A stretch of 64,000 nucleotides of DNA, taken from Arboricoccus pini. Lineage in GTDB: Bacteria > Pseudomonadota > Alphaproteobacteria > Geminicoccales > Geminicoccaceae. Shown piece by piece: positions 5,352 to 50,675 of the stretch. Below the pieces are notes generated by a model. That model was not told the origin of the DNA, ran no database searches, and saw only the letters and a list, made by a program, of their open reading frames with translations. The stretch is from contig NZ_FYEH01000001.1 in NCBI RefSeq assembly GCF_900187945.1, positions 1 through 64,000 of the forward strand. Direction: 5' to 3'. The first letter of the stretch is position 1. Every line of letters starts with the position of its first letter. The translations under genes and the position numbers were made by a program.

Positions 5352-6434
5352 CTAGTCTTCCTGGTCCTCGAGCAGCGATCGCAGCAAGGCGGGGGAAATA
5401 TTGAGCTCGCCGATCCGGTCGGCCCCCTCGGCCAGCCCGTTAAAGGCTTGGGCGATCAACGTGCTCGACTTGGCCTGCCCGATCGTCAGCGCCTGGAGCA
5501 CCTTCGGATCGACATCCTTGAAGACCGCCATCGTCGTCGAGATCGCATAGGCCTTGGCGTCCGCCTCCTTGCGCGCATTCTCCAGGCGCAGGACGGTAAG
5601 CTCGCGGTTCCGCTCCTCAAGGTTGATCTTGCCGGTCAGGGCCTGGTCCTCGATCTCCTGGCGCCGCTCCAGCTCGGCACGCTCCGCCTCGAGCTGCGTG
5701 TCGCGTATCTGCCGCTTCTTGGTCTCGATCGCGATCTCGGTATTGAGCTCATTCTCCTTGACGGCGCGCTCCTGTTCGATCGCCGCATTGCGGCGCACAT
5801 AGACCGCATCATCCGCCTGCTTGAGGATCTGCTCGCGCGCATTGGCCTCGAGGGCGCGGCCTGTATCGGGGTTGGGCTTCACCGCGAGGATGGAAAGGTC
5901 GACCAGCGAGATGCCCAGTGTCTTGAACGTCGCCGCCTGCCCGACGGCATCGCGCACACTGATTTCAAGCTCGCTCGAGCGGCGCAGGAGATCTTGCAGC
6001 GGCATGGTCTGCAACGCATTGCGCACCTGCACCTGCACGACCGTCACGACGCGTGCCGAAAGCTTTTGTGGATCTTCGGAAAGATAGGCCTTGCGGTCCG
6101 GACCGAGGGTGAAATTCATCATTCCGGCCAGAACGACGGGCTCGCTGATCCGATAAGTGACCTGCCCTTGGACCGTCACCTCCTGGAAGTCCTGGCTTAC
6201 TTCCTGGAACATAAAGGGAATGTCGATCGTCTCGAGCGGAATCGATACGAGTGACGCATTGGGGGCGAAATAGAAAAACGACAGACCCGCTCCCTGGCGC
6301 ACGGGCTTGCCGTTGCGAAAATGAATAATGTAGACGCTCGGGTTTGCTTTTACGTGCCCAAATAATCTTCTAAATATCATCAAGAAAATTATAAGAGCGA
6401 AGGCGATTATTATAAATGAAAAAGCATCAAACAT
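5352..6434 (-). CDS. SPFH/Band 7 membrane-anchored protein
   Basis: 360-residue protein with an N-terminal membrane anchor (about residues 6-25), an SPFH/prohibitin domain (about 30-205, including the segment FMFQEVSQDFQEVTVQGQVTYRI, cited here by its first residues FMFQEVSQ), then a charged coiled-coil of about 100 residues rich in Glu, Arg and Gln, and a short C-terminal tail. Such proteins oligomerise at membranes and scaffold microdomains or proteases. The first 31 codons are strikingly AT-rich for this genome (27 of 93 bases G or C), with two AGA and several ATA and TTA codons, then usage returns to normal. It precedes the NAD-kinase-like gene by 10 bp. No NfeD-like partner is present. 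Confidence 0.82.
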   Translation of the reverse strand: MFDAFSFIIIAFALIIFLMIFRRLFGHVKANPSVYIIHFRNGKPVRQGAGLSFFYFAPNASLVSIPLETIDIPFMFQEVSQDFQEVTVQGQVTYRISEPVVLAGMMNFTLGPDRKAYLSEDPQKLSARVVTVVQVQVRNALQTMPLQDLLRRSSELEISVRDAVGQAATFKTLGISLVDLSILAVKPNPDTGRALEANAREQILKQADDAVYVRRNAAIEQERAVKENELNTEIAIETKKRQIRDTQLEAERAELERRQEIEDQALTGKINLEERNRELTVLRLENARKEADAKAYAISTTMAVFKDVDPKVLQALTIGQAKSSTLIAQAFNGLAEGADRIGELNISPALLRSLLEDQED

Positions 6435-6685
6435 TATTGCCAGCGTCCTGACTGGTTATTTTCTCACGTGTCAGGCAAGACGCTTCGTCGAGTCTCCCTT
6501 CCAGCAAAATCGCCGAGAGACATCATGAGCTCGCTTCGTGCGTCGCACGAATGCGCGCGACCGGAACCGGGACCACCCAGCCACCTGCCTGCGCCATGCC
6601 GCCTGTTCAAGGACCACAACCTAAAGGTTCGGCGCGCTTTCGGCCAGCCATGCCGGAACGAACGAATCCCTAGTGTTGCTCGGGC

Positions 6686-7099
6686 CTAGACGCCACGGGG
6701 CGGCGGGCCGGCAGTCAGCCATGCCGGATCGAACCAGCGATCCGCCGGGCCGTCATAGGGCAGGCGGTTGATGTCCCAAAGGCGGATATAGGGAGCATAG
6801 GCGGCCCAGACCCTGGGCCCGCCGCCGACGAAGACGACGCGCCCGGCAAAGCGCGCCAGCACTTCGCCGGGCTGCTCGTGCGAGCGGATGGTGACCAGGG
6901 TTCGGTCCTTCCTGGCGAAGGCGGGTACCGAGGCGATCGTGGTCGGGCCGGCGATCAACACATGGCCCTGCGTCAGCTCGAAGAAGCGCGCCACGTCGGC
7001 TTCGTAGATCCTCCCCTCGGTCCCGCTCCAGGGCATGCCGCCATCGAGCCCGATCTGGCCACGCTGCCCAATGGCACACATCGCCCGCACATCCGCCAT
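6686..7099 (-). CDS. Short dihydrofolate-reductase-like protein
   Basis: A 137-residue protein resembling DHFR. It keeps the N-terminal strand and the Gly-rich loop (IGQRGQIGLDGGMPW) and an acidic residue in ADVARFFELT matching the DHFR active-site Asp. It also keeps GGGPRVW, which corresponds to the NADPH-binding Gly-Gly turn. It lacks the usual MGR(K/R)T motif (here IAGPTT) and is about 20 residues shorter than standard FolA. ATG at 7099 is preferred over 7108 because AGGA lies about 10 nt before it and abuts the other. It follows zwf closely, so it is probably co-transcribed. No thyA is nearby; catalytic activity on dihydrofolate is uncertain. Confidence 0.6.
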   Translation of the reverse strand: MADVRAMCAIGQRGQIGLDGGMPWSGTEGRIYEADVARFFELTQGHVLIAGPTTIASVPAFARKDRTLVTIRSHEQPGEVLARFAGRVVFVGGGPRVWAAYAPYIRLWDINRLPYDGPADRWFDPAWLTAGPPPRGV

Positions 7100-7117
7100 G
7101 CCGCCCATTTCCTGATC

Positions 7118-8650
7118 TCAGCTCCTCTTTTGCAGTGGCGCCCAGGCATGCTCGCTGCCGGTCAGCCGATCCGCGCCGGCCGGGCCTTGGCTCCCGGCGG
7201 CATAGCTCTCAAGCGGGATCTCGTCCTTGGCAAAGCCTTCCAGAGCCGGTGCCACGACGGTCCAGGCCCGCTCGATCGCATCGGCGCGCTGGAAGAGCGT
7301 GGCATCGCCCATCATGCAGTCATAAAGGAGTGTCTCGTAGCCGACATTGGCCCGGTGCGGGAAGAAGTCGGCATAGTTCATGCGGGTCGTGACCCGGCCT
7401 AGTCGCATGGCCGGGCCTGGCTCCTTGGCATCGAAGCTGGTCTCGATCGCATGCTCGGGGTCGATCTTGAGCGTCAGGACATTGCGCGCCAGCCGCTCGC
7501 TCGCGGCATCCCTGAAGAGCTGGTGCGGGGCGGCCTGGAAATGGATCGAGATCTCGGTGCGCCGCTCCGCCAGTCGCTTGCCGGTGCGCAGGAAGAAGGG
7601 CACCCCGCCCCAGCGCCAATTATCAACGGCGAGGCGTAGCGCCACATAGGTCTCGGTGTCGCTCTCGGGCGAGACGCCAGGCTCCTGCCGGTAGCCCGGC
7701 ACACCCTGCCCATCAATGCTGCCGGCCGTATACTGGCCACGCACCACGTCCTCCCTGCTGAGGGGGCGCAGCGCCGCCATCAGCTTCGACTTCTCGTCGC
7801 GCACCGCCTGGGCCGAGAGGGAGGAGGGCGGTTCCATCGCCACCATGCAGAGCAACTGGAAGAGGTGGTTGGGGACCATGTCGCGAAGGGCGCCCGCATG
7901 CTCGTAAAACTCGCCGCGCCGCTCGACGCCCACCTTCTCCGCCGCCGTGATCTGGATGCAGTCGACGAACTCGCGCCGCCAGATGGGCTCGAACATGCCA
8001 TTGGCAAAGCGCACCGCCATGATGCTCTGCACTGTCTCCTTGCCGAGGAAATGATCGATCCGATAGATCTGGTCCTCGCTCGCCACCTTGAGCAGCCGCT
8101 GGTTCAGGTCGCGCGCCGTCGCCAGATCGTGGCCGAAGGGCTTTTCGACCACCACGCGCCTGAAACGCGCCTCCCCCTCTGTCAGCAGGCCGGCCTTGCC
8201 TAATTGTTCGGCCAGGGGCGCGAAAAAGCGATCGCCGACGGCGAAATAGAAGATGGCGTTGCCCTGGCCGATCCGCTCCTTCAAGTGGGCGAAAAGCCCC
8301 TCGTCGGCAAAGTCGCCCTTGATGTAGGAAAGCCGCTGCATCAGCCATTGCCAGCGCGCTTCGTCGGGCTGGCCGACATGCCCCCCGGCGGTACCGTCGC
8401 TGGCCGCCGCCTGCGTGAACGCCGTCAGATTCTGGCGCCAGCCCGCATCGTCCTGGTCGATGCGATCGACGCCGATGACCGCGAAATCGTCGCTAATGAG
8501 CCCGTCATGGGCAAGGTTATAGATCGAGGGGACCAGAAGCCGCTTGGTAAGGTCGCCGCCGGCACCGAAGACCACCAGGGTACAGGGCGGCAGGCTGGAG
8601 GCCCCGGCCTTGGCCTGGCGGAGGTCGCCGCCCGGTTCGCTGTCGCTCAT
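7118..8650 (-). CDS. zwf: Glucose-6-phosphate 1-dehydrogenase (copy 1)
   Basis: Oxidises glucose 6-phosphate to 6-phosphogluconolactone, the entry to the Entner-Doudoroff and pentose phosphate routes. The N-terminal Rossmann motif is GAGGDLTKRLL, the active-site motif RIDHFLGKE lies near residue 195 and EKPFG upstream of it. About 510 residues, normal for the family. ATG at 8650 is chosen because GGAG sits 6 nt upstream; an in-frame ATG at 8665 has no ribosome site. A second, clearly different zwf lies at 39642-41123. A DHFR-like gene follows and egtB lies 100 bp upstream on the same strand. Confidence 0.93.
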   Translation of the reverse strand: MSDSEPGGDLRQAKAGASSLPPCTLVVFGAGGDLTKRLLVPSIYNLAHDGLISDDFAVIGVDRIDQDDAGWRQNLTAFTQAAASDGTAGGHVGQPDEARWQWLMQRLSYIKGDFADEGLFAHLKERIGQGNAIFYFAVGDRFFAPLAEQLGKAGLLTEGEARFRRVVVEKPFGHDLATARDLNQRLLKVASEDQIYRIDHFLGKETVQSIMAVRFANGMFEPIWRREFVDCIQITAAEKVGVERRGEFYEHAGALRDMVPNHLFQLLCMVAMEPPSSLSAQAVRDEKSKLMAALRPLSREDVVRGQYTAGSIDGQGVPGYRQEPGVSPESDTETYVALRLAVDNWRWGGVPFFLRTGKRLAERRTEISIHFQAAPHQLFRDAASERLARNVLTLKIDPEHAIETSFDAKEPGPAMRLGRVTTRMNYADFFPHRANVGYETLLYDCMMGDATLFQRADAIERAWTVVAPALEGFAKDEIPLESYAAGSQGPAGADRLTGSEHAWAPLQKRS

Positions 8651-45680: not shown

Positions 45681-46142
45681 CTAGAAGGTCAGCCTGAGAG
45701 TGGCCTTGAAGGCGTTCTGGCGCGCGTCGGCGGCGATCTGGCCGTTATAGAGGATCCCCAGCGTGGCCGACCCCGAGAGTGCCACATCGATGCCGGTTTC
45801 GATGAGGGTGCTGTCCTTGGCGATTGCCACGCCTTCAACATCGAAGGCCTGGCCGGCCGAGAAGGACTGGGCAGCCTTTGACGTGGTGTCGCCAAAGGCA
45901 TGCCGCCAGCCGAGCGAGCCTCTCAAGGTGGTCGCCAGACCGCCCAGATCGAGCGTGCTGGCGGCACGAAGGCCGAGCGTGGTCAGGGTGGTTCCCATCG
46001 TCCGCCCCTTCTCATGCAGCGCGGCCTCGCCGCCATCTTCCGTGAAGCCGTTGGTATGCAGGCTCACATAGGCAAGATTGGTGAATGGCTCGATCGAGAC
46101 GGCCGGCAGGTCGACGCGATAGCCAAGATCGCCGAAGGCTTG
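45681..46142 (-). pseudogene. C-terminal end of the autotransporter beta-barrel, cut off by an amber codon
   Basis: 153 codons in the same frame as the autotransporter upstream, separated from it only by TAG (46143-46145). It starts QAFGDLGYRVDLPAV and EPFTNLAYVSLHT, and ends in ATLRLTF with the terminal Phe that outer-membrane barrels use for assembly. It contains the last strands of the barrel. Translation alone could begin at ATG 46067, but that would not give a working barrel. Most likely the gene was inactivated by a single C-to-T change (CAG to TAG), or the base is a sequencing error. Confidence 0.8.
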
Positions 46143-49100
46143 CTAGGTGCCGGCGCGATAATCGCCATCCAGGTGTTCCCGCAGCCCGGGCAGCGAGACC
46201 CGCCGCCCGCTGTCGATATCGTGCAGGCTGTAGGCAAGGCCGGTGCGCAAGCCCAGCGCTCCCAGCTGCGTGCCGCCATAGAGCCCAAGATGGTAATTCT
46301 CGCTCTTGGCCGACGCGGACGGGTCCGGCGCATTGAGGTTGGTGTGGCTGTAGCCGCCGAGCACGCCCAGGCGCCAGTGCTCAAAGACGGTGGTATCGGC
46401 ACCCAGCAGGAAGCCGCTCGTCGCCTGATTGAGCCGTCCCGCATTGCCGTCATTGCTGAATGAGCCCCAGCCGCCAAAGACGTGACCCCATGTGGCGAGG
46501 TCAGGTGAATCGGCAGGTGCTGCCGCGGCGCCGTTCGTATCAGGGGCCATGACCGGTATGGCCGTAGCGGCGACGCCGCCGAAGGCGCCGCGCACGCGAT
46601 TGATCGCCGCCTCGCGTACGAAGCGGCTATCCTCGATCAGCGCTGCCTTTGTCGACGCATGGATCTCGCCCGTGACCTGGTTGAAGCTCCGGCTGATCAC
46701 ATTATCGTCGTTCGGCAGCCGGACGATGGCATCGTAGACCATATGGCCGGCGCCCATGCCGATGCTGTCGATCGCGGCCGCAGCGGCCCGCTGGTTCGGC
46801 GTCTGACCGCGCGAGGTAAAATCGACCTCGTTGCGTGACAGTTGCAATCCGACAGTGCCCTCTGCGTAATCGTAGAGCAGATTGGGCGTGAGGAAGGCGT
46901 AGTTCGACGAGACGCCGGCGAACGTGCCGGTCAGTTGGCCGTCGGCCGCCAGGATGGTGGTAACGGCGTACAACTGCGCGTTGCTTATCGTCCCGAGTTG
47001 AAAGACCATGCCCCCTTTCAGGGTGGCGTCGCCTGTGACATGGACGAAATCGACAGCGTTCGGGGAGAAGCCGACCTCGTAGCGTGCGCCGGGCTCAACG
47101 ACGAGATCGCCATCCACGGTAAGCGTGCCCTCCGAGGTGCCGCTCATTGGCGCGCCGCCCGGCGCCAGCGTGCCGCCGGAAGCCACTGTAAGTGTCGAGC
47201 CGGCACCCGACCCGACCGTCCCGAGACCGCCCAGCGTCGCGTCGTCGAGGACCGTTATCGAGCCTCCCAGTCGTGTGCTGGCATTCGCCAGGCTCGAGCC
47301 CACGACGAGGCTGCCGGCCTCGATCCTGCTCATGCCGTTGAATGTCGGGCTGTTGCCATCATAGGCCAGCGTGCCCGGCCCCGCCTTGACGAGTTCACCC
47401 TGGCCGGAGATCGTGCCCGAATAGGCAGCATCCTGGGTCTGGTCGAGCACGAAGATGCCGGCCGGGCCGATCGCGGCATTGCCCGCAAAGCGCTCGGCCG
47501 AGCTCGTCAGCGTGCCCGCCTGGACGTCCCAGTCGAGCGCTGAGGTGCCGGTCAGCGTCAGGTTGCCCGTGCCCTGCTTGACCATGGTGCCGGCCGTGCC
47601 GTCGAGCGGGTCGACACTGCCGGCGAAATCGGCATCGGCGCTCTGGTCGAAGATGACCGTCCCGGCATTGGCGATATTGCCGGAGATCGACGCACTATTG
47701 CCGACCAGCGTGCCCGCCTGAACCAGCGTGTCGCCATAGGCGTCGGCTCCGGTCAGCACCAGCGTGCCGGGTCCCAGCTTCGTCAGGTCCCCAGACCCCG
47801 TGATGGGGCCAGCCAGCGTCGCGCTGCCGCCCGCGTCGGTGATGTCGAAGGCGCCTCCGCCAGCATCGAGGACAACGGGCCGCGTCGTCGATCCATAGTC
47901 GCTGCCCGTGATCTGCAAGGTACCGCCAGCCAGGCTCAATCCGGCTCCCGGTTGGCCGAGGCTGACATCCTGCGAGACGGACAAGACACCGCCATCGATC
48001 GCCGTCCCGCCCGTATAGCTCTTGGGGCCCTCCAGAACGAGTGTGCCCGTGCCCACCTTCACCAGCCTGTCACCGAAGCCGTCGGCGATGTCGCTGGCAA
48101 TCGTAGCGCTGACATTGGCATCGACGTTGACAATGCCGCCATTGGCCGTGCCGATCGCAAGGGTGCCATCCTGGAGGCGATAGCCGGAAGTCGAGAATTG
48201 AAGCGTGTCGAAATAAGGGTCGTCCCGCACGCTTACCGTCCCCGCCTGGCCGCTGAAGACGGCCACGGAGTTCGCCCAGCCGGCATTGCCGCTGCCATCC
48301 GCGCTCGTCCAGTTCGTGCCGAACCCCTGCCAGACCCCGTCACCTCCGTCGACCGTGCCGTTCGCGGTTGCGGTCGAGCCGTCCCAGAACTGCACCCTTT
48401 GACCTGTCCCGAGGACCAAGAGGTTGACCTGACCCGGGATGTTGTACCGCACGGCGTAGTTGACCGGCGTGAAGCCCGCATCGGTCGAGACGATGGATTC
48501 ACTGGCAAAGCCGCTCCCTGGTGCCAGCGTGCCATAGTCAAACAACCGGTAATAGCCGGCCGCCGCGACTCGAGCTTCCAGCGCGCCGGCGACGGTAAGC
48601 TTTCCGCCCACCTCGACGAGGTCGTTACCGGCGACCCCGGTTCCACCGACGACGCCCGGGCTGTTGAATTCGAAAAGGGAGGTGGAGCCGGGCGAGAGCG
48701 TCAGGTCATGGGTAAAGGTCAGCGTTCCTGGGCTGTTGCCGGCTGAAAGCCGTCCATCGATCGTGACCTCTCCCGTCAACGTGCCCGAGCCACCGAGTGT
48801 GCCGCCCCGCTGGACGCTGACATCGCCGCCCAGCGTGCCGGCGCCGCTCGAATCGCCCACCAGCAAGGTGCCATTCGAAACAATGGTGCCGCCAGTGTGC
48901 GATGCCGTCCCCGAGAAAGTGAGGGTTCCGCCGGCCAGCACGAGGGTGAGACGGCCCGTTCCGCCATCGTTGATCGTTCCCGAAAACGTGTCCGCGCCGA
49001 TCGTCGTCGAATCGACGGTCAAGATGGCATCGTCCGTATCACCGTTGGTGATCAGGCCGCTGCCTCTGCTTTCGCTCGTGATGCCGCCGACGGTCGTCAT

Positions 49101-50675
49101 GTGGCCGCCCAGACTGAGCGTGCCGCCAACGCCACCCAGCTGATTGTCGAAGTGAAGATGGGCAGCTCCGGTCAACGCATTGTCGGCAAAGACGTTAACC
49201 TTGCTGTTTTCGAGGAGATATTGGTTTCCGCCCGCAACCGAGGCCGCGACCTGGGCATTGAGGCTGCTATTCCCGTGAAAAGACTGCGTCCCGGCGATAA
49301 TCGCGTTGGCCGCCGCAGCGTTGAACGCACTCGAGTAATCGAAACTTTGCATCCCGCCGTTGACGGCAGTGGCGGCATTGGCATTGAGCGCGCTCGAACC
49401 GATGAAGCTTTGTGTGCCCCCAGCGATGGCGTTGGATGCCTGGGCATTGAGCGCGCTGGTGCCCTCGAAACTCTGCGTGCCGCCTGCGACCGCAGCAGCG
49501 GCATTGGCGTTGAGCGCGCTCGAACCGATGAAGCTTTGTGTGCCCCCGGTGATGGCGTTGGATGCCTGGGCATTGAGCGCGCTGGTGCCGTCGAATTTCT
49601 GCGTGCCGCCTGCGACCGCAGCAGCGGCATTGGCGTTGAGCGCGCTCGAACCGATGAAGCTTTGTGTGCCCCCGGTGATGGCGTTGGATGCCTGGGCATT
49701 GAGCGCGCTGGTGCCGTCGAATTTCTGCGTGCCGCCTGCGACCGCAGCAGCGGCATTGGCGTTGAGCGCGCTCGAACCGACGAAGCTTTGTGTGCCCCCA
49801 GCGATGGCGTTGGATGCCTGGGCATTGAGCGCGCTGATGCCCTCGAAACTCTGCGTGCCGCCTACGACCGCAGCAGCGGCATTGGCGTTGAGCGCGCTCG
49901 GACCGGCTTTGGTGTTGCGCGTGCTGACGACGCCGAATTTCTGCGTGCCGCCTGCGACCGCAGCAGCGGCATTGGCGTTGAGTACGCTGTTGCCACTAAA
50001 GATTTGATTGCCAGCGGCGATCGCGCCTCCTGATGCAACGAGTTGGCTGTTATCGTAGAACAGTTGGTAGCCCCCATGTAACGCAGCCGAACCGGTGGCG
50101 TTCAATTTAGAGGAACCCTGGAAAAACTGCGCGCCGCCACTGATGGCGTTTGCGGAGGCGTTCAGCGCGCTACCGCCATCGAAGGTCTGGTTGCCACCGC
50201 TGATGGCGTTGTCCGCTGTAGCGTTCAGCTGCGCGTTGCCATAGTAGAATGAATTTCCGGCATTCAGGGCGTTGGCAGTCAGCGCGTTGAGTGTGCTGTC
50301 GCCATAGAATTGCTGCTGGGTCGTGGCTGTGGTGGCGAAGCCCGACCGAATATTGAAGACGCTGTAATCGTAAAAGCGAAGCTGGGTGCCGTCGGCTAGG
50401 CTGGTACTGTCGATGGCGCCGACGACGGTCGCGTTTAGTGTGCTATAATTATAAAAATATATGTGGGCTTTGCCGCTCACCGTATTGGCGCTGTTGGCGT
50501 TGAGTGTGCTTCTTTCTTTAAACTCATATTTACCAGAAGAGAACGGTCCGGTCGACGTCGTTGTACCGGTAAAAGTGTTCTGAGCGAGCGCCTGCGATGC
50601 CACGATTGCCGGCATCGCCGGGAGGATCAACAGAGCTTTGAAGCCGCGCCGCCTGCCTGCCCATATCGCGATCAT
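46143..50675 (-). CDS. Autotransporter adhesin-like protein, barrel truncated by in-frame stop
   Basis: 1510 residues before the amber codon; 1664 would be read through. Residues 1-31 are a signal peptide (hydrophobic core, ending ASQALAQ). Residues about 50-500 are degenerate 20-21-residue units of the type SALNANAAAAVAGGTQ, including four near-identical 42-residue copies. From about 600 to 1150 come passenger-associated beta-strand repeats (GTLVLTGADAYGDTLVQAGTL, GTLVLEGPKSYTGG). The autotransporter barrel begins around 1240 (ATWGHVFGGWGSF, GFLLGADTTVFEHWRLGVLGGYSH), but its last strands lie beyond the stop. A secreted beta-helix adhesin is likely in the intact form; as written it should not insert properly. 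Confidence 0.85.
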   Translation of the reverse strand: MIAIWAGRRRGFKALLILPAMPAIVASQALAQNTFTGTTTSTGPFSSGKYEFKERSTLNANSANTVSGKAHIYFYNYSTLNATVVGAIDSTSLADGTQLRFYDYSVFNIRSGFATTATTQQQFYGDSTLNALTANALNAGNSFYYGNAQLNATADNAISGGNQTFDGGSALNASANAISGGAQFFQGSSKLNATGSAALHGGYQLFYDNSQLVASGGAIAAGNQIFSGNSVLNANAAAAVAGGTQKFGVVSTRNTKAGPSALNANAAAAVVGGTQSFEGISALNAQASNAIAGGTQSFVGSSALNANAAAAVAGGTQKFDGTSALNAQASNAITGGTQSFIGSSALNANAAAAVAGGTQKFDGTSALNAQASNAITGGTQSFIGSSALNANAAAAVAGGTQSFEGTSALNAQASNAIAGGTQSFIGSSALNANAATAVNGGMQSFDYSSAFNAAAANAIIAGTQSFHGNSSLNAQVAASVAGGNQYLLENSKVNVFADNALTGAAHLHFDNQLGGVGGTLSLGGHMTTVGGITSESRGSGLITNGDTDDAILTVDSTTIGADTFSGTINDGGTGRLTLVLAGGTLTFSGTASHTGGTIVSNGTLLVGDSSGAGTLGGDVSVQRGGTLGGSGTLTGEVTIDGRLSAGNSPGTLTFTHDLTLSPGSTSLFEFNSPGVVGGTGVAGNDLVEVGGKLTVAGALEARVAAAGYYRLFDYGTLAPGSGFASESIVSTDAGFTPVNYAVRYNIPGQVNLLVLGTGQRVQFWDGSTATANGTVDGGDGVWQGFGTNWTSADGSGNAGWANSVAVFSGQAGTVSVRDDPYFDTLQFSTSGYRLQDGTLAIGTANGGIVNVDANVSATIASDIADGFGDRLVKVGTGTLVLEGPKSYTGGTAIDGGVLSVSQDVSLGQPGAGLSLAGGTLQITGSDYGSTTRPVVLDAGGGAFDITDAGGSATLAGPITGSGDLTKLGPGTLVLTGADAYGDTLVQAGTLVGNSASISGNIANAGTVIFDQSADADFAGSVDPLDGTAGTMVKQGTGNLTLTGTSALDWDVQAGTLTSSAERFAGNAAIGPAGIFVLDQTQDAAYSGTISGQGELVKAGPGTLAYDGNSPTFNGMSRIEAGSLVVGSSLANASTRLGGSITVLDDATLGGLGTVGSGAGSTLTVASGGTLAPGGAPMSGTSEGTLTVDGDLVVEPGARYEVGFSPNAVDFVHVTGDATLKGGMVFQLGTISNAQLYAVTTILAADGQLTGTFAGVSSNYAFLTPNLLYDYAEGTVGLQLSRNEVDFTSRGQTPNQRAAAAAIDSIGMGAGHMVYDAIVRLPNDDNVISRSFNQVTGEIHASTKAALIEDSRFVREAAINRVRGAFGGVAATAIPVMAPDTNGAAAAPADSPDLATWGHVFGGWGSFSNDGNAGRLNQATSGFLLGADTTVFEHWRLGVLGGYSHTNLNAPDPSASAKSENYHLGLYGGTQLGALGLRTGLAYSLHDIDSGRRVSLPGLREHLDGDYRAGT
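49389..49892 (-). repeat. Four tandem 126-bp repeats in the autotransporter passenger
   Basis: Units begin at about 49389, 49515, 49641 and 49767, nearly identical at DNA level, each coding 42 residues made of two related 21-residue halves (one with SALNAQASNAI, one with SALNANAAAAV). Flanking copies at both ends are degenerate. The length is a multiple of three, so gain or loss of a unit keeps the frame. Confidence 0.85.

Follow-up and report, generated by a model that had tools for sequence, protein, structure and literature searches.

Why should an otherwise intact autotransporter gene of Arboricoccus pini carry a single in-frame amber codon in the middle of its β-barrel? The gene lies in a window of 64,000 nucleotides, the start of contig NZ_FYEH01000001.1 (assembly GCF_900187945.1), and its stop codon might reflect a lost gene, an unusual mode of decoding or a wrong base. 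We consider it probable that this type Va autotransporter gene was inactivated not long ago, when a point mutation created a nonsense codon in the translocator barrel.

One reading frame interrupted by one codon

Translated from 50675 to 45681 on the minus strand, the frame contains only one internal stop, TAG at 46143–46145, after 1510 codons. The open part (46146–50675, minus strand; 1510 aa) encodes a putative signal peptide (MIAIWAGRRRGFKALLILPAMPAIVASQALA-Q at the N-terminus, read by eye from the translation), a passenger rich in repeats and bearing PATR β-strand repeats, and barrel strands 1–5 together with part of strand 6, as assigned from the translation and from matches to PF12951, TIGR01414 and TIGR02601. 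Past the TAG, the same frame continues for 153 codons (45684–46142, minus strand), which begin with CAA, complete strand 6 and add strands 7–12 as seen in the AlphaFold model, and end in ...KATLRLTF just before the regular TAG stop at 45681–45683. Taken alone, these 153 codons match PF03797 positions 119–255 with an E-value of 1.6e-30; read across the stop, the barrel matches PF03797 (Autotransporter) positions 2–255 with 212.9 bits and a single TAG inside. For comparison, in 14 neighbouring genes supported by Pfam the next in-frame stop is found 10–109 codons beyond the gene's own stop. Since the continuation matches PF03797 and neighbouring genes run on for only 10–109 codons, the continuity of the frame across the TAG is not a matter of chance. 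These results bear out the preliminary description, which had reported an autotransporter with one amber codon inside its barrel and an in-frame continuation of 153 codons up to the barrel ending ATLRLTF.

By its sequence, the gene is a classical type Va autotransporter, because it combines a PATR passenger (PF12951 and TIGR02601) with a C-terminal TIGR01414/PF03797 barrel. The PF12951 match scores 51.3 bits, above the cut-off, and covers three stretches of the passenger, which TIGR02601 matches as well; a passenger of this kind would fold as a β-helix. The TIGR01414 match scores 122 bits. A C-terminal 12-stranded barrel of the type Va kind is present in the DNA, whereas translation would break off within that barrel's strand 6. 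The passenger also includes an in-frame tandem array (49339–49905, minus strand) of a 126-bp (42-codon) unit in 4.5 copies with 94% matches; its copy number may vary from one strain to another, or the assembly may have collapsed it. On one side the gene is flanked by two M20 peptidases, a polysaccharide deacetylase and a protein with a urate-oxidase N-domain, and on the other by an isochorismatase-like protein, an amidase, a dihydroxy-acid/phosphogluconate dehydratase, G6PD, a PfkB kinase and a sugar-type ABC transporter. No mobile element was found among these metabolic neighbours.

What the stop removes

The barrel was modelled with AlphaFold2 from the window sequence and 21 homologs, with the TAG read as a residue. 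The model has twelve main strands and a mean pLDDT of 87.3, and it places the stop at residue 116 of the 269 barrel residues, inside strand 6 (residues 103–124). It follows that the translated product would be deprived of half of the barrel and of the C-terminal strand. Outer-membrane proteins are assembled by the BAM machinery, and a barrel missing half of its strands, including the C-terminal one, should not insert into the outer membrane. In the inactivation that we propose, ribosomes would halt at the UAG after 1510 residues and release a product that keeps the signal peptide, the passenger and about five and a half of the twelve barrel strands. With only a partial barrel and without the C-terminal signal for outer-membrane insertion, this product should therefore fail to reach the surface and would probably be degraded in the periplasm.

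Might the two halves instead be made separately and assemble as a split barrel? A 128-aa open reading frame does open with GTG at 46067, downstream of the stop. However, a product started there would be missing the remainder of strand 6 and, having no signal peptide, could not enter the periplasm; moreover, a split at this site is seen in none of 102 homologous loci. We find this explanation scarcely credible.

Homologs at the position of the stop

The column of the stop is covered by 102 homologous loci, many of which are closely related Mesorhizobium copies, so that not all of them are independent. None of the 102 has a stop in this column. The residues found are Phe (43), Ala (35), Val (8), Thr (4), Tyr (3), Asp (3), Trp (3), Leu (2) and Ile (1). 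No homolog ends its barrel here, although a family of that kind was looked for, and a barrel that naturally terminates at the TAG could accordingly be rejected. The premature in-frame stop removes a part of the protein that the homologs retain, as is characteristic of nonsense pseudogenes.

Intact relatives include a Hyphomicrobiales MAG (AWTP1-3) and Ancylobacter moscoviensis, whose barrels are 58% and 57% identical, respectively, and have Phe in the stop column, and Nitratireductor aquimarinus (51%), which has Val. The match to the latter extends through the passenger (residues 547–1664, 48%). The N-terminal repeats of the passenger (residues 49–605) align at 48.5% with another Hyphomicrobiales MAG locus (L053, about 5451–7187), and few other homologs share them. 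Within the family Geminicoccaceae, no close counterpart of the gene was found in 30 other genomes, the best E-value being 4e-8. A 44%-identical autotransporter also occurs in MW462191.1, a record filed under 'Bacteriophage sp.', next to genes for EvgS and a sigma-fimbriae usher and chaperone. Given these neighbours, the record is probably a mis-filed bacterial contig, and we rejected a phage link through it.

The same alignment bears on how the stop arose. A single C-to-T change of a CAG codon had been proposed, but this origin is left without comparative support because glutamine occupies the column in none of the 102 homologs, most of which have Phe or Ala. The invariant glutamine of the family corresponds to the next codon, the CAA directly after the TAG.

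Age of the lesion

If the gene had been inactive for long, the part beyond the stop might be expected to show it. In a leave-one-out profile comparison, the barrel fits its family with 2.03 bits per column before the stop and 2.04 after it, a difference that ranks 34 of 49 among the homologs and is unremarkable. Departures from near-invariant columns number eight before the stop and three after. The GC content by codon position is also much the same, 0.67/0.52/0.81 upstream and 0.62/0.52/0.80 downstream, and no second lesion was found anywhere in the frame of the gene. Of the 14,967 single substitutions that the gene could undergo, 321 create a stop, so that about 107 would be expected per unit of neutral divergence; the occurrence of zero further stops places neutral divergence since the lesion below about 3% (95% Poisson bound).

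Because the profile fit is no worse beyond the stop than before it and a second lesion is absent, the stop is either recent or a base-call error, and the present data fit both. To this extent the earlier view that the rest of the gene is intact, and the lesion hence very recent or an error, holds up. The suggestion of a phase variant did not: no simple repeat or homopolymer is present at the TAG. That the sequence beyond the stop shows no decay speaks against a pseudogene inasmuch as an error or a rescued gene would leave the same picture.

The natural gene may be intact, with the TAG either a sequencing or assembly error at one base or a mutation that the isolate acquired in culture. Unrelaxed constraint after the stop and the absence of a second lesion are what this explanation predicts, and the sequence is still a draft, made up of 28 contigs. 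On the other hand, the assembly consists of large contigs and is estimated to be 99.3% complete and 0.2% contaminated. The gene has a single array of near-identical repeats, and as the stop lies some 3.2 kb away from it, repeat collapse is not the cause. On general grounds, too, substitution errors that happen to create a stop should be rare in comparison with real pseudogenes of the autotransporter family. We therefore regard an error or a culture-derived change as rather unlikely, and recent inactivation of the gene by a nonsense mutation as the better account.

Decoding of the UAG

Another way to keep the gene alive would be weak or regulated readthrough of the UAG, with little full-length autotransporter as the result. 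Such a role would be in keeping with the intact and constrained half downstream of the stop and with the codon that follows it: this is CAA, so that position +4 is not a U, which is the base linked to low read-through. In E. coli, tRNA-Gln has been reported to misread UAG at a background level, as cited in PMC5289835.

Against this stands the absence of a stop from this column in all 102 homologous loci, which shows that the stop is not conserved, and the lack of any dedicated apparatus. None of the 46 tRNA genes detected in the genome has a CUA anticodon, the amber suppressor that the preliminary description had proposed to search for; tRNA-Ile(GAU) is missing from this set as well, so genes at contig breaks may be missed. 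For pyrrolysyl-tRNA synthetase there is only a weak match, 28 bits against a cut-off of 178. With no CUA anticodon among these 46 tRNAs and the synthetase below cut-off, both a suppressor tRNA and pyrrolysine decoding were rejected. So was a changed code for TAG, since release factor 1 is present in the genome and 3 of the 14 neighbouring Pfam-supported genes have TAG as their normal stop. Downstream of the stop, the RNA is folded no more stably than shuffled controls (z 0.53), giving no sign of a stimulatory structure, and a literature search found no papers on readthrough in autotransporters. The proposal that the site is read through thus finds no backing in suppressor tRNA, pyrrolysine machinery, downstream structure or conservation of the stop, and we think it very unlikely. 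Background misreading could give traces of full-length protein, but nothing sets this site apart. That low-level, condition-dependent misreading supplies a small amount of full-length protein to the surface, making this an autotransporter throttled by its stop codon, seems to us more improbable still. Readthrough would be notable if it were ever shown, but nothing that we found points to it.

Decay of autotransporter genes in this genome and elsewhere

A gene inactivated by a nonsense codon is in familiar company. Truncated or stop-bearing copies of the autotransporter are present in several genomes. In Mesorhizobium xinjiangense, a barrel of the same kind also contains an in-frame amber; there, however, it lies at barrel residue 3 (bases 239–250) and not at 116, and the gene is cut off by the end of its contig. 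In the A. pini genome itself, we observed two 5′-truncated barrels, one matching only from barrel residue 77 onwards (L003, G000:C14:173353-173877) and the other only from residue 122 (L004, G000:C14:23090-23476); the signal, the passenger and the first strands are missing from both. The former directly abuts an ORF that, from its sequence, we take to be MntP-like. The fourth barrel locus of the genome, on contig C24, is an open frame of 1018 aa with a full-length barrel match. A codon-usage scan of the window for further interrupted genes gave no usable signal, because antisense frames, too, looked coding in this GC-rich DNA.

A close published parallel is provided by Brucella bmaA, bmaB and bmaC, autotransporter pseudogenes produced by premature stops (PMC8111173). 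Like the gene described here, they encode type Va proteins of Alphaproteobacteria with PATR repeats, and in some strains or species, though not in all, the stops cut off the C-terminal translocator. The bma loci differ in that they often carry several lesions, many of them fixed within species, whereas in the one A. pini strain analysed the gene has a single lesion, which lies within the barrel. In Campylobacter, capC and capD likewise exist as intact and inactive copies, the latter with premature stops and frameshifts that were read as lineage-specific gene decay (PMC7168839). Inactivation by premature stops is shared with the present case, although the Campylobacter genes belong to another autotransporter family and to a distant bacterial group.

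Seen against these examples, the A. pini locus is probably an ordinary case of the well-documented autotransporter pseudogenes that arise through nonsense codons. In annotation, it should be recorded as a single interrupted gene rather than as a protein of 1510 aa. Alongside this barrel with its fresh stop, the genome contains two 5′-truncated remnants of the same kind, and the locus illustrates once again how autotransporter repertoires turn over.
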